A stretch of 64,000 bases of DNA from Allorhizobium borbori (GTDB lineage: Bacteria > Pseudomonadota > Alphaproteobacteria > Rhizobiales > Rhizobiaceae): positions 248,001-312,000 of the forward strand of contig NZ_JACIDU010000003.1 in the NCBI RefSeq assembly GCF_014196535.1, in the 5' to 3' direction. Under the pieces are notes generated by a model. That model had not been told where the DNA came from, searched no databases, and saw only the letters and a list, made by a program, of their open reading frames with translations. Position numbers and translations under genes: made by a program. Shown piece after piece: positions 58,543 to 63,137 of this stretch (positions are counted from its first letter, which is position 1; every line of letters begins with the position of its first letter).

Positions 58543-59808
58543 TCAGGCGTCCGCCACAGAGCCGCTCGGCTGACCGCACACACGGTTTCGCCCCTCGCCC
58601 TTGGCCGTGTAGAGGCGCTCGTCGGCACTCGAGATGAGTTCTGCGAAATTCACACCATCTTCAGGGCCGGACGCCACGCCGCAACTGATCGTAACCGCAA
58701 CCCGGTCGGCTGTCGAAAGCGTCGATGCCACGAGGCGTCGCAGATGTTCGGCCCGCTCCATGGCCTGCGGATGGTCCAGCCGTGGCAGCATGATGACGAA
58801 CTCCTCGCCACCAAACCGGTAGAGCCGGTCTTCCCCGCGAATGGCATTACGCAGAAGGTCCGCAAGGGCCTTCAGCACCTCGTCACCCGCTAGGTGCCCG
58901 AAACGATCATTGACGGATTTGAAGTGATCGACATCAAGAATAACGGTGCTGATCGCTTCGCCGGATTGCAGGCTTTCGCGAATCATCGCTGGCACGTCGA
59001 TTTCCATGCGGGCGCGGTCGAAGACGCCTGTCAGCGTATCGCGGCCGGACCTGGCCAGCAGGTCTTCGTAGCGCTCGCGGAAGGTCAGATCGCCGAAGAC
59101 ATCGGCCAGCGGACGGGTCGCCGCATAGGGTTCGCCTGCCCGACGCATGTGGCGGTAGAGAAAATAAATGGTGGCGTAGATGAAGGCCGCGAGCATCTTG
59201 CCGGCCCATCCGCTCCAGAAAGCCGACGACGGCACATCGAAGAAGGCATGAAGCATACCGAAAAAGGCGATCTGATCAAATGTCAGCAGCGCGATACCGG
59301 ATAGCAGGAAACGCGGCACCACCCGGCGCGGCATGAACCGCCCCAGTCTTTCGTAGAGCAGGATGATCGCGACGGAGTCGAGATAGAGCAACGTTGTGCC
59401 CCAGAGCATCAGCCAGCCCATTTCCTTGATGAAGGCTGCATCCTTGACCGGTCCGACACCATCAACCGCGTGAAACTGCAGCAGAAGGCCAATTGCGACA
59501 GTCATCAGATTGCCCAGGAACAGGCCATAGATCGGCTGACGTACCGTCTCCGCATCTTCCTTGATGTAGAGGAGCAGGATAAGCATCAGCTTTCCCGCGA
59601 ACAGGATTGATGATCCCGGCGAAACCGTGCCGAAGGGAAGCTCGACGTAAAAGACGGCCGCCAGATAGGTTTCAAGAAAGTGCATGACGCCGAGCGCGGT
59701 CAGAAAGACGCCCAGCCCGAGCCGCCTGCGAAAATGCAGGAGCGTCAGCATGACCGTGAAATAGAACACAGCCTCAACGAAAAAGACAAAGAGGTTGAAA
59801 AACGGCAA
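58543..59808 (-). CDS. Seven-helix membrane diguanylate cyclase
   Basis: A 421-residue diguanylate cyclase. Residues 1-225 form about seven membrane helices of an unassigned sensor module, with some resemblance to transporter-like sensor domains. Residues 250-410 are a GGDEF domain with an intact GGEEF (333-337) and an I-site R324-x-x-D327 five residues before it, so it should make c-di-GMP with product inhibition. The start is TTG 59808. The Amt-PAS-GGDEF-EAL gene ends 89 bp upstream on the same strand; a long structured hairpin fills the gap (59826-59868). Confidence 0.88.
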   Translation of the reverse strand: MPFFNLFVFFVEAVFYFTVMLTLLHFRRRLGLGVFLTALGVMHFLETYLAAVFYVELPFGTVSPGSSILFAGKLMLILLLYIKEDAETVRQPIYGLFLGNLMTVAIGLLLQFHAVDGVGPVKDAAFIKEMGWLMLWGTTLLYLDSVAIILLYERLGRFMPRRVVPRFLLSGIALLTFDQIAFFGMLHAFFDVPSSAFWSGWAGKMLAAFIYATIYFLYRHMRRAGEPYAATRPLADVFGDLTFRERYEDLLARSGRDTLTGVFDRARMEIDVPAMIRESLQSGEAISTVILDVDHFKSVNDRFGHLAGDEVLKALADLLRNAIRGEDRLYRFGGEEFVIMLPRLDHPQAMERAEHLRRLVASTLSTADRVAVTISCGVASGPEDGVNFAELISSADERLYTAKGEGRNRVCGQPSGSVADA

Positions 59809-59897: not shown

Positions 59898-62800
59898 TCA
59901 CGCCGAAACAGCGCTGGGTAGTGTCGGGTTGTCTGCCTCTGCACGCCGGGAGAGATTGGCAAGCGCAGTCCGGTCGGCATCGGCCTGCAGCAGACGGCGG
60001 CGCATTTCTGACATGAGCATGGGGTCACACCACCGCTGCACCTGCGAAAGCGGTTGCGGACGCCCGAACAGGAAGCCCTGCAATTCGTTGCATCCACTCG
60101 CTGACAGGAAGATGGCCTCATCGATCGTCTCGACCCCTTCAGCGACAACCTTCATACCCAAGCCGCGACCGAGATCGATAATGCTGCGCACGATGACTTC
60201 TGCGCTGTTCACAACACCGAGATTGGCCACGAAGCGGCGATCGAGCTTGATCGTATCGAAGGGATAGCGGCTGAGATAGCTGAGTGAGGAATAGCCGGTG
60301 CCGAAATCGTCAAGCGCCACGCCGAATCCCATGCGCTTCAGGCTCCTGAGGATCTGCTGCGCGCGGCGGTCGTCATCGATCAGCACGCTTTCCGTGATCT
60401 CAAGTTCGATCTGGTCCGGGTGTACGCCGCTGCGGTGGACGATTTCGCCCAACGCATCCAGGAAACCGGGATGGCGGAACTGCACCGGGCTGACATTGAC
60501 GCTGACACGCTGGCCGGGCAGCTCAGTGGAGAGCAGCCGGCATGCCTCGCGAAACACCCATTCGCCGATCGGAATGATCGTGCCGGAGGCCTCCGCGACA
60601 GGAATGAAATCGCCCGGGTTCACGAAACCGCGCGCGGGGTTATGCCAGCGAATCAGCGCCTCGTGGCTGGAGACAGAGCCGGTCGCGGGATCGATGCGCG
60701 GCTGGAGGTAGAGTTCGAATTCGTGGCGATCGAGTGCCTGCTTCAGCTCGACCTCGATCTCGCGGCGGCGCTCAACCTCCGCATTCATGCCGGGCCGGAA
60801 AACATGCCAGGTGTTGCGGCCGGAATTCTTGGACTGGTAGAGTGCGACATCGGCGCAGGCGAACAGGTCTTCGGGATCGGTGGCGTGCAGCGGGCAAAGG
60901 GCACCGCCCACGCTGACGCTCCCGGATACCTTTTCCCCGAATCCGATATCGAAGGGTTCGGCAAAGACGGAGACGATCCGACGGCAAAAGTCCTCGAGCT
61001 GGTTCTCGAACACGACGTTATTGAGGATGATGGCAAATTCATCGCCACCCAGCCGCGCAGCGGCATCGTGACGGCCGATGAGACCGTGAAGGCGACGGGC
61101 CGCTTCACGAATGACCGCGTCGCCGGCGAGGTGGCCGTGAATGTCGTTGATATCCTTGAAATGATCCAGATCGATCAGGATGAGCGCCGTGCTGCGATGA
61201 CCTTCCAGCGGGCCTGTCGCCCTGGCCAGCCGCTCGTTGAACAGGCCGCGATTTGGCAGCCCGGTCAACGGGTCGTGTTGGGCAAGATGGCGAATGCGGC
61301 TTTCGGCCTCCTTGCGTTCCGTCAGATCGACAAGGCAGCCGACGCGCACCTTCTCACCACGAAACACGATGTCACGCCCCCTTGCCTCGACCGGCACGCG
61401 ACGACCATCGGGCAGGCATATCTCGATCTCGTAGCCCGAGACCCGGTCGTCATCCATGACGGAAAATACTTTTTCGCGCGACTCTTCGGTCAGGTAATCG
61501 GAAAAACGTGAACCGATGATTTGTGCACTCGACAGGCCTGTCAGGCGTTCCAGTTGGCGATTGCAATCGAGGATGAGGCCGTCGCGGTGGATGACGATCG
61601 CTTCGAAAGTGGCGTTGGCCAGTGCGGTCACGCGTTCGGCCTCCTCCATATCACGGGACATCGCCTGAAGCTGGCTCTTCTGGCGTTCCTCATCCTCAAT
61701 CGTATCCATCAGGCGGTTGAAAAGGCCGGTGAGCTTTTCCGCCTCATCACCGGCGACAACCGGCAGGCGCTTCGAAAGATTGACAGTACCGTTCAGCAAT
61801 CCGCTGATCGCCTCTTCCACATGACCGACGCCCATGCGTGATGCGTGTTCGGCAACGTTGAGGCCGACATCCTCGGCCTCCGGGGACACACGGACAGTCA
61901 TGATGCGGTTGAGGCCATAGAAGAAAAGGAAGCCTAGGCCGAAGCACCAGAGGAAATTGACGCCGACACCAAGCGCCTGGATCTGCAATTGCGCCAGCTT
62001 GCCACCGGCCGGTAAGAGTTCGGCTGGAGCCAGCAGCGCAAGACCGAGCGTTCCCGCAACTCCGGCAAAAGCATGCACGCCGACGGCACCGACCGCGTCA
62101 TCGACCCGAAAGCGCGTTTCCAGAAGATGATTACCCCAGAGCGAAACGGCGGCCCCCACCAGCCCGATCAGCGCGGCACTGGCGCCATCGAAGAGGTGGC
62201 ATCCAGCGGTCACGGCCACGAGCCCGCCCAGCATGCCGCAAAGCGTCTTCTCCGGCAGCACCACCCGGTCCTGCCAATAGCCGATCACATAACCAGCGCA
62301 GGTGCCAACGGCACCGGCCAGAACCGTATTGAGAATAACGTGCCCGACATTGGACGTGACAGCCAGCGTCGAGCCACCGTTGAAACCGATCCAGCCGAAG
62401 AACAGCAACATGCCGCCAGCCATCGAGAGGACCGGATTGTGACCGGCGATGCGAACGGGTCGGCCGTATTCATCGAAGCGTCCCATGCGCGGGCCGATCA
62501 CCAGACAGGCGGCCAGTGAAATCCAGCCACCCGTCGCGTGAACCACGCTCGAACCGGCGAAGTCGACAAAACCCAGATTGGCAAGCCATGCGCCCTGATT
62601 GGGACCGAGGACCCCGCCCCAGGCCCAGTGGGCGAAAACGGGATAGATCACCGCCGAGAGGGCAACGGTTCCCGCCACATAAGCCGTCAGCCCCATACGC
62701 TCGGCAACAGCTCCCGAAACGATCGTGGCGGATGTACCGCAGAACATCACCTGGAAAACGAAGAAGGTAGCCTGCCATGAATCGAGCTTCGACAGAAAGA

Positions 62801-63137
62801 ACAGATCGCCATCAAGGCCCACCGGCAGGAACCCGGATGAACCGAAGGCAAACATGAAGCCGACGGCGGCGAAAACAACCACGCCAAAGACGAAATCGAG
62901 GACGTTTTTCTGGGCGACATTGATGGAATTACGCGAGCGCACCATGCCGGCTTCAAGAAGCAGAAAGCCGACCTGCATCATCAGCACCAGTGCGGCGGCA
63001 ACGAGAACCCACGCGACATCAAGCCGATGCGCGAGTTCGCTCAACCCTTGGCCATCCGCCGCCCACGCAAATGGGGGCGCCGCTGCCAGCGCTGCAAGAA
63101 ACACCATTGCATGAAAGCCCTTGGCCGCCAATCGCAT
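59898..63137 (-). CDS. Ammonium channel (Amt)-PAS-GGDEF-EAL fusion protein
   Basis: A 1079-residue protein. After a signal-like N-terminus, residues 35-415 are a complete Amt/Rh-type channel. The pore histidines are at H200 (DFAGSSVVHATGG) and H355 (GVHAFAGVAGT); HWAWGG and FGWIGFNGGS correspond to other pore motifs, so conduction or at least ammonium binding is plausible. The conserved Amt cytoplasmic tail (PEAEDVGLNVAEHASR) leads into a coiled linker, a PAS domain (about 505-605), a GGDEF (615-780, LGGDEF at 696-701) and an EAL (795-1045, EAL at 826-828, DDFGTGYSSL at 943-952). No RxxD I-site is visible before the GGDEF. It is best read as an ammonium sensor for c-di-GMP turnover, making or degrading it by an undetermined balance. 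Confidence 0.93.
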   Translation of the reverse strand: MRLAAKGFHAMVFLAALAAAPPFAWAADGQGLSELAHRLDVAWVLVAAALVLMMQVGFLLLEAGMVRSRNSINVAQKNVLDFVFGVVVFAAVGFMFAFGSSGFLPVGLDGDLFFLSKLDSWQATFFVFQVMFCGTSATIVSGAVAERMGLTAYVAGTVALSAVIYPVFAHWAWGGVLGPNQGAWLANLGFVDFAGSSVVHATGGWISLAACLVIGPRMGRFDEYGRPVRIAGHNPVLSMAGGMLLFFGWIGFNGGSTLAVTSNVGHVILNTVLAGAVGTCAGYVIGYWQDRVVLPEKTLCGMLGGLVAVTAGCHLFDGASAALIGLVGAAVSLWGNHLLETRFRVDDAVGAVGVHAFAGVAGTLGLALLAPAELLPAGGKLAQLQIQALGVGVNFLWCFGLGFLFFYGLNRIMTVRVSPEAEDVGLNVAEHASRMGVGHVEEAISGLLNGTVNLSKRLPVVAGDEAEKLTGLFNRLMDTIEDEERQKSQLQAMSRDMEEAERVTALANATFEAIVIHRDGLILDCNRQLERLTGLSSAQIIGSRFSDYLTEESREKVFSVMDDDRVSGYEIEICLPDGRRVPVEARGRDIVFRGEKVRVGCLVDLTERKEAESRIRHLAQHDPLTGLPNRGLFNERLARATGPLEGHRSTALILIDLDHFKDINDIHGHLAGDAVIREAARRLHGLIGRHDAAARLGGDEFAIILNNVVFENQLEDFCRRIVSVFAEPFDIGFGEKVSGSVSVGGALCPLHATDPEDLFACADVALYQSKNSGRNTWHVFRPGMNAEVERRREIEVELKQALDRHEFELYLQPRIDPATGSVSSHEALIRWHNPARGFVNPGDFIPVAEASGTIIPIGEWVFREACRLLSTELPGQRVSVNVSPVQFRHPGFLDALGEIVHRSGVHPDQIELEITESVLIDDDRRAQQILRSLKRMGFGVALDDFGTGYSSLSYLSRYPFDTIKLDRRFVANLGVVNSAEVIVRSIIDLGRGLGMKVVAEGVETIDEAIFLSASGCNELQGFLFGRPQPLSQVQRWCDPMLMSEMRRRLLQADADRTALANLSRRAEADNPTLPSAVSA

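Follow-up and report, generated by a model that had tools for sequence, protein, structure and literature searches.

What does an ammonium transporter do when it is joined, in one polypeptide, to the enzymes of cyclic diguanosine monophosphate (c-di-GMP) turnover? The question is raised by a gene of Allorhizobium borbori that lies in the 64,000-nucleotide stretch of contig NZ_JACIDU010000003.1 analysed here (hereafter the window). A single ATG-start frame of 1079 aa on the minus strand, positions 59898..63137, encodes an Amt domain, a HAMP-like linker, a PAS domain, a GGDEF domain and an EAL domain. An initial annotation, made from the sequence, had reported one frame joining Amt, PAS, GGDEF and EAL; its coordinates, with the strand, start and length of the frame, proved correct, and Pfam agrees with its domains. 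In our reading, which we hold to be probably correct, the product works as an ammonium receptor in the membrane, where it sets the turnover of c-di-GMP, probably as a net phosphodiesterase, and is opposed by a neighbouring VUPS cyclase.

The architecture itself is established. The Amt domain spans residues 42-433 (61839..63014, on the minus strand like every feature below), where PF00909 matches with 323 bits over profile positions 1-396 of 399. It is followed by the linker at residues 434-494 (61656..61838), the PAS domain at residues 502-607 (61317..61634; PAS_9 at 513-607, PAS at 502-599), the GGDEF domain at residues 619-775 (60813..61283; 138.5 bits) and the EAL domain at residues 797-1027 (60057..60749; 233 bits), and all but the linker score above the Pfam gathering cut-off. 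Full-length homologs are carried by 7 of the 60 related genomes, six among the 36 genomes of the same family (50-78% identity) and one among the 24 from the order's other families (53%); PAS, GGDEF and EAL are all detected by Pfam in each of the eight aligned full-length proteins, the window's included. These homologs, together with those in the named genomes that were scanned, rule out an assembly artefact or a chance fusion. Compared with the same-genus ortholog, the nonsynonymous rate dN is lower than the synonymous rate dS in every domain (Amt 0.12 versus 1.23, EAL 0.15 versus 0.88), with most dS values above 1 and thus near saturation. Among the plasmid records listed as matches up to a limit of 5000, from which near records of the genome itself may have been excluded, none held 80% or more of the fused protein.

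Is the Amt part a receptor or a plain transporter? The fused Amt retains the twin histidines H200 and H355, the gate phenylalanines F132 and F252, the vestibule residues W173 and S256, and D192, all invariant in the eight aligned proteins. The presence of both histidines, on which the initial annotation had relied, is thus borne out, and the survey across homologs that it had proposed found no loss, both residues being kept in 44 of 44 GGDEF-EAL fusions. Plain Amts have the pore residues too, so these say nothing about sensing, and we rejected them as a mark of sensors. A more telling comparison is with Ks-Amt5 of Candidatus Kuenenia stuttgartiensis (PDB 6EU6), which the accessible text of PMC5764959 describes as an Amt turned receptor that binds ammonium with an apparent dissociation constant of 41 uM and without efficient translocation. 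There, the intramembrane ammonium site consists of Q24, E31, N47, D50, T51, T109 and T112, and the pore is closed by F27, Y30 and F34. Alignment places Q55, E62, N78, D81, F82, T138 and S141 of the fused Amt at the seven ligand positions, with five identical residues (Q55, E62, N78, D81 and T138).

Three of these residues part receptors from plain Amts: Q55 (62973..62975), D81 (62895..62897) and T138 (62724..62726), equivalent by alignment to the Ks-Amt5 ligands Q24, D50 and T109. We compared 121 sensor-type Amts (46 with GGDEF-EAL, 3 with GGDEF, 38 with kinase, 24 with chemoreceptor and 6 with other outputs, and 4 short frames, one of which is truncated where its contig stops), Ks-Amt5 and Sd-Amt1 of Shewanella denitrificans among them, with 54 plain Amts. 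The latter comprised 24 near or reference rows (19 of the nearest matches, the genome's three other Amts, A. fulgidus Amt1 and E. coli AmtB) and 30 rows taken from a survey of the phylum by an independent PF00909 ranking. The Q55-D81-T138 triplet occurs in 120 of the 121 sensor-type Amts versus none of the 54 plain Amts, and the lone exception is a partial row that is gapped at positions 55 and 81. In an unguided scan of all columns, only Q55, D81 and T138 reached at least 99% in the sensors with 0% in the plain Amts. The chance that three random columns of the 465 would all fall among the seven ligand columns is about 2e-6, an estimate that treats as independent columns that are not truly so. 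Columns I72, N73 and A75 also separate the two sets and were discarded from the signature because two peptide patterns, [KR]NSINVAQ and GF[VI]DFAGS, had been used to choose loci; neither pattern covers Q55, D81 or T138. The residue counts exclude two copies of the window gene (L003, L035), retain three partial rows that were left out of the trees (L063, L064, L088), and include three identical pairs (L015/L091, L037/L087, L039/L109) and two PDB chains; output classes were assigned by motifs and then by local profiles from the same set, with a Pfam check on ten proteins. Two further columns, Y153 and N427 in the C-terminal tail (N versus D), separate sensors from plain Amts, and several sensor-type survey matches, such as the 1039-aa frame at G184:C392, fall outside the compared set.

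Structural comparison points the same way. The top matches of the predicted Amt fold are the two solved Amt receptors, Ks-Amt5 6EU6 (Z 63.8, root mean square deviation (rmsd) 1.2 over 398 residues) and Sd-Amt1 (PDB 8QJ3 in the OFF-state, 8QJ4 in the ON-state, and 8QPF; released 2024-06-12). Sd-Amt1, likewise a sensor-type Amt fused to GGDEF, is 44% identical with Z 62.5-62.8 over the Amt domain (8QJ3 and 8QJ4: Z 62.7-62.8, rmsd 1.4 over 395) and has the same residue as the fused Amt at each of the seven Ks-Amt5 ligand positions. It differs in that its chains of 644 and 661 aa match only the Amt and GGDEF parts, with no PAS or EAL match, and in that its Amt is placed in a different region of the tree. 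Ks-Amt5 differs in its histidine kinase output and in having no HAMP domain, as its authors state in the accessible text of PMC5764959. Downstream of the membrane, the same PAS-GGDEF-EAL chain is found in PA0861 (Foldseek E 6.8e-34), with its domains placed differently (rmsd 20.8), and the output part resembles the GGDEF-EAL enzymes MorA, PA0575, MucR and DibA; the matched chains of all five are without an Amt domain. The AmtB-GlnK system shares the Amt fold and the pore, whereas AmtB has neither the Q/D/T triplet nor a fused output. The claim of the initial annotation that an Amt is linked to c-di-GMP as an ammonium sensor therefore gains support at the level of residues, from a Ks-Amt5-type site and conserved outputs, yet it is not new in kind: Ks-Amt5 is an Amt-kinase receptor and Sd-Amt1 an Amt-GGDEF receptor. 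Our most useful findings are a residue signature that parts receptors from plain Amts across outputs, a probably repeated link to c-di-GMP and a conserved VUPS-GGDEF neighbour. Amts fused to other domains were noted earlier by Tremblay and Hallenbeck 2009, as cited in the accessible text of PMC5764959. The terms GGDEF and c-di-GMP have no match in the accessible portions of two reviews (PMC10433425, PMC10794816), and the matches listed by our literature search, which mostly did not reach subscription papers, include no paper evidently on an Amt-GGDEF-EAL protein or on Sd-Amt1.

How would such a receptor act on its output? As we picture it, the N-terminal Amt, trimeric in its family, would keep the transporter pore and carry Ks-Amt5-type ammonium-binding residues; ammonium would enter the pore and be held there, and a change in the Amt C-terminal helix would pass through the HAMP-like linker and the PAS domain to the GGDEF-EAL unit. 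Both the path and the direction of this response we infer. The initial annotation mentions neither this linker, nor the VUPS-GGDEF gene on the same strand, nor Sd-Amt1, the Amt-GGDEF receptor of known structure. HAMP matches the window linker below the cut-off (E 0.011, 16.4 bits versus a gathering cut-off of 25), is found at E<=1 in 6 of the 8 aligned full-length proteins, and, in a scan of ten proteins, scores above the cut-off in 4 of 7 Amt-chemoreceptor relatives (L084, L085, L038, L116). A local linker profile matches nearly all fused classes; having been built from these fusions, it was not leaned on. The predicted structure of the fused protein, from 32 sequences, has a mean predicted local distance difference test score (pLDDT) of 85.2 and a predicted template modelling score (pTM) of 0.48, with the individual domains confident.

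Which of the two enzymes dominates the output? The GGDEF motif is intact at residues 697-701, and the EAL domain keeps the catalytic positions that we checked, in agreement with the initial annotation. Across 45 of the 46 GGDEF-EAL rows (L139 was assigned to the class only afterwards), 44 have an unbroken GGDEF motif, the exception being L065 with AGDEF, and E826, N881, E913, E916, D943, D944, K964, E1000, E1003 and Q1020 of the EAL domain are present in all 45. Variation is confined among the checked positions to E911, which is Cys, and Y949, which is Leu, in the same five fusions (L097, L099, L100, L104, L137), to T947, which is Val or Ser in nine of the 45, and to A827, which is variable in seven. 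The equivalog profiles that score best on the GGDEF-EAL part belong to phosphodiesterases, DibA with 405 bits (E 4e-121) and PRK10060 with 397, scores that are far below the respective cut-offs of 980 and 782. Many tandem GGDEF-EAL proteins are chiefly phosphodiesterases. A net phosphodiesterase is thus our choice for the output, probable and at least as likely as a cyclase given the intact EAL; GGDEF would then provide a second activity or serve as a GTP-sensing regulator.

The product-inhibition site bears on this choice. The I-site position of the window protein reads GRHD instead of RxxD; the I-site is thus absent, as the initial annotation had observed. RxxD is likewise missing from the homologs in the same family and in named Rhizobiaceae, L007 excepted. 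The same receptor could be a net cyclase, in which ammonium would turn on GGDEF, the lost I-site would remove feedback and EAL would trim basal c-di-GMP. This would fit the GGDEF motif kept in nearly all fusions, the lack of an I-site in the window and in each of the 10 relatives that have a VUPS neighbour, and Sd-Amt1, an Amt receptor with GGDEF as its matched output. We nevertheless regard it as unlikely: the EAL metal and catalytic positions are largely retained in all 45 fusions, a dedicated cyclase already adjoins the gene in 11 loci, and RxxD is present in 20 of the 45 GGDEF-EAL fusions, so its loss is lineage-specific. The earlier proposal of a cyclase free of product inhibition stands as to the missing site and presumes a working cyclase, where a net phosphodiesterase is at least as likely.

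The dedicated cyclase is encoded 89 bp downstream of the fused gene by a co-directional gene (58543..59808, minus strand; 421 aa) for a VUPS membrane sensor with GGDEF, in which GGEEF and the I-site RGED are intact. The gene neighbourhood is conserved: the pair occurs in the window and ten relatives (L006, L066-L074) with a spacing of 28-131 bp, the longest frames overlapping in the same-genus ortholog L006. This corresponds to 9 of the 12 loci with long flanks (L065-L076) plus L006; L007-L012, with only about 1.5 kb of flank, were too short to be counted. GGEEF and RxxD are found in the VUPS cyclase of all 11 pairs, whereas RxxD is missing from every one of the 11 fused proteins. Each of the ten relatives that have the pair also carries HlyU and threonine dehydratase genes upstream. 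The site prediction for the window listed nothing like a terminator in the gap between this gene and the fused one; it gave 2 promoter-like sites versus 1.5 in shuffles and 6 terminator-like sites versus 5.6. Judging from this arrangement, the two genes likely share an operon, and in A. borbori and its Rhizobiaceae relatives the VUPS-GGDEF cyclase would oppose the fused enzyme. The search made for literature on VUPS found none. The Pseudorhizobium homolog at L065:5638-9147 (+), where AGDEF replaces GGDEF, has no adjoining VUPS-GGDEF gene.

Several observations weigh against a Ks-Amt5-like receptor that drives c-di-GMP turnover with a partner cyclase. Two of the seven ligand positions are changed, T51 to F82 (non-conservative) and T112 to S141 (conservative), both changes being shared with Sd-Amt1, and E62, N78 and S141 are non-specific, since 20 of the 24 nearest plain Amts carry them as well. 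At the three pore-closing positions the fused Amt has F58, L61 and M65, of which only F58 matches (F27 of Ks-Amt5); F58 also occurs in 20 of the 24 plain Amts, and Y30 and F34 are replaced. The predicted structure falls below pLDDT 50 at linker residues 462-464 and 491-510, which with the pTM of 0.48 makes the predicted arrangement of the domains one of low confidence. HAMP and GGDEF-EAL units are usually dimeric, an awkward fit with a trimer. No VUPS neighbour adjoins the fused gene in L065, L075, L076 and L077-L083. Finally, a conserved upstream sigma-54 site was not found for the window gene and the alphaproteobacterial loci. By comparison with the sigma-54 consensus, a nitrogen promoter is rejected, with four mismatches in the best window site and at least three in the other 25 alphaproteobacterial loci; a site with as few as two mismatches is seen only in the ortholog L006, at -80.

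Since only one of the three bulky pore-closing residues has a counterpart, transport may persist in the fused Amt. The protein might then be a transceptor that still conducts ammonium, its output reading the flux and not the occupancy of a dead-end site. Retention of all known pore residues and the absence of two of the three Ks-Amt5 pore-blocking residues would suit this idea. However, the fused Amt conserves the Ks-Amt5 binding site at its Q/D/T positions, and Ks-Amt5, although a poor ammonium translocator, retains all known pore motifs according to the accessible text of PMC5764959, so that pore residues are no proof of transport. On balance we find a transceptor distinctly unlikely. We do not class the fused Amt as a copy of Ks-Amt5; from the aligned residues, it is likely to work like Ks-Amt5 only at the binding site.

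Could the signal come from elsewhere, with the Amt as a mere membrane anchor or a docking platform for PII, and with PAS or PII binding as the input? A PAS domain is present, and the PII protein GlnZ of Azospirillum binds two c-di-GMP enzymes, as reported in the accessible text of PMC7646526. The low dN of the Amt domain (0.12 versus a dS of 1.23) and the invariance of its pore and site residues in eight proteins stand against this explanation, and so does the location of the genome's two PII genes, at C9 (beside another Amt) and at C3:42807, neither near the fused gene at C3:307898-311137 and none adjoining it. We consider it very improbable. Three more Amts are encoded in this genome, and one of them adjoins a PII gene, so the fused gene need not serve uptake; GGDEF has 39 matches in the genome. 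One of these Amts (L004, G000:C25:16373-17569) is very divergent, with an end branch of 8.48 and H/A/S in place of the triplet, and is unlike both AmtB and the sensor-type Amts.

How widespread is the receptor, and did its link to c-di-GMP arise once? Relatives of the fused protein's Amt domain were found at 80 or more loci in the named-genome scan, and in a survey of 385 genomes of the class the listed sensor-type matches score at least 364.6 bits against the Amt model, with the next match at 285.1. In a tree of 139 rows, the window Amt lies within a clade of 27 alphaproteobacterial GGDEF-EAL fusions, with members in Rhizobium, Neorhizobium, Pseudorhizobium, Agrobacterium albertimagni, Stappia, Roseibium and Novosphingobium. 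Amt-chemoreceptor fusions adjoin this clade, making up 14 of the other 15 rows of the branch (Shimodaira-Hasegawa-like approximate likelihood-ratio test (SH-aLRT) 99); these nearest neighbours, L013 and L084 among them, have HAMP above the cut-off in some cases and differ in that their output is a methyl-accepting chemotaxis protein (MCP) signalling domain. GGDEF-EAL fusions outside the clade occur in Marinomonas, Methylophaga, Alteromonas and others, and the gamma- and betaproteobacterial ones are placed elsewhere in the tree, interspersed with fusions to kinases and other outputs. Long branches put five distant plain Amts (AfAmt1, EcAmtB, L001, L002, L004) inside the sensors in this tree. 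In a thinned tree of 118 rows, which excludes these five and some near-duplicates, the 13 retained plain Amts form one side of a branch with SH-aLRT 100. A single origin of the GGDEF-EAL fusions (42 of the 118 rows) is rejected by the approximately unbiased test (p 3.2e-5, log-likelihood lower by 143.8), which was run on a quick tree with a constrained group picked after viewing the first tree. Because holding these fusions together is rejected, the sensor Amt was probably joined to GGDEF-EAL more than once.

This phylogeny and the residue conservation, both established, invite a broader proposal that we advance only tentatively. One ammonium-receptor module, defined by its intramembrane Q-D-T residues, may have been attached to c-di-GMP enzymes more than once, to histidine kinases, to chemoreceptors and, in one case or more, to a SpoIIE-type phosphatase. 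It may further have given rise, in Rhizobiaceae, to a two-gene push-pull, in which a product-inhibited VUPS cyclase faces an Amt-gated enzyme without product inhibition, so that two transporter-like sensors, Amt and VUPS, would set c-di-GMP by external ammonium and bypass PII. PII reports nitrogen status from the cell interior; a receptor for external ammonium acting directly on c-di-GMP would, if real, make motility and attachment in Rhizobium, Neorhizobium and their relatives depend on a nutrient of soil and roots. The Q-D-T signature, if valid beyond our sample, would offer a quick genome test for ammonium receptor versus transporter, and it points to three residues that bear on mechanism. 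Because one sensor recurs with varied outputs, these fusions would also lend themselves to the study of how a transporter built as a trimer can drive output domains that are usually dimeric.

Other members of the family deserve mention in their own right. A sensor-type Amt without a fused output occurs in Colwellia (L135:6001-7293 (+)); a 1182-aa frame 46 bp downstream on the same strand (L135:7340-10888 (+)), in which no GGDEF or EAL motif was found, may be a separate partner. The Amt-MCP fusions (L013, L015, L036, L084, L085, L093, L113 and others), on which the search made found no literature, are spread over alphaproteobacteria, Bacillaceae, Planctomycetota and Verrucomicrobiota and are candidate ammonium chemoreceptors. 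A further output type is seen in the cyanobacterial Roseofilum (L111:5989-8490 (+)), where a sensor-type Amt is joined to PAS and a SpoIIE-type phosphatase domain.

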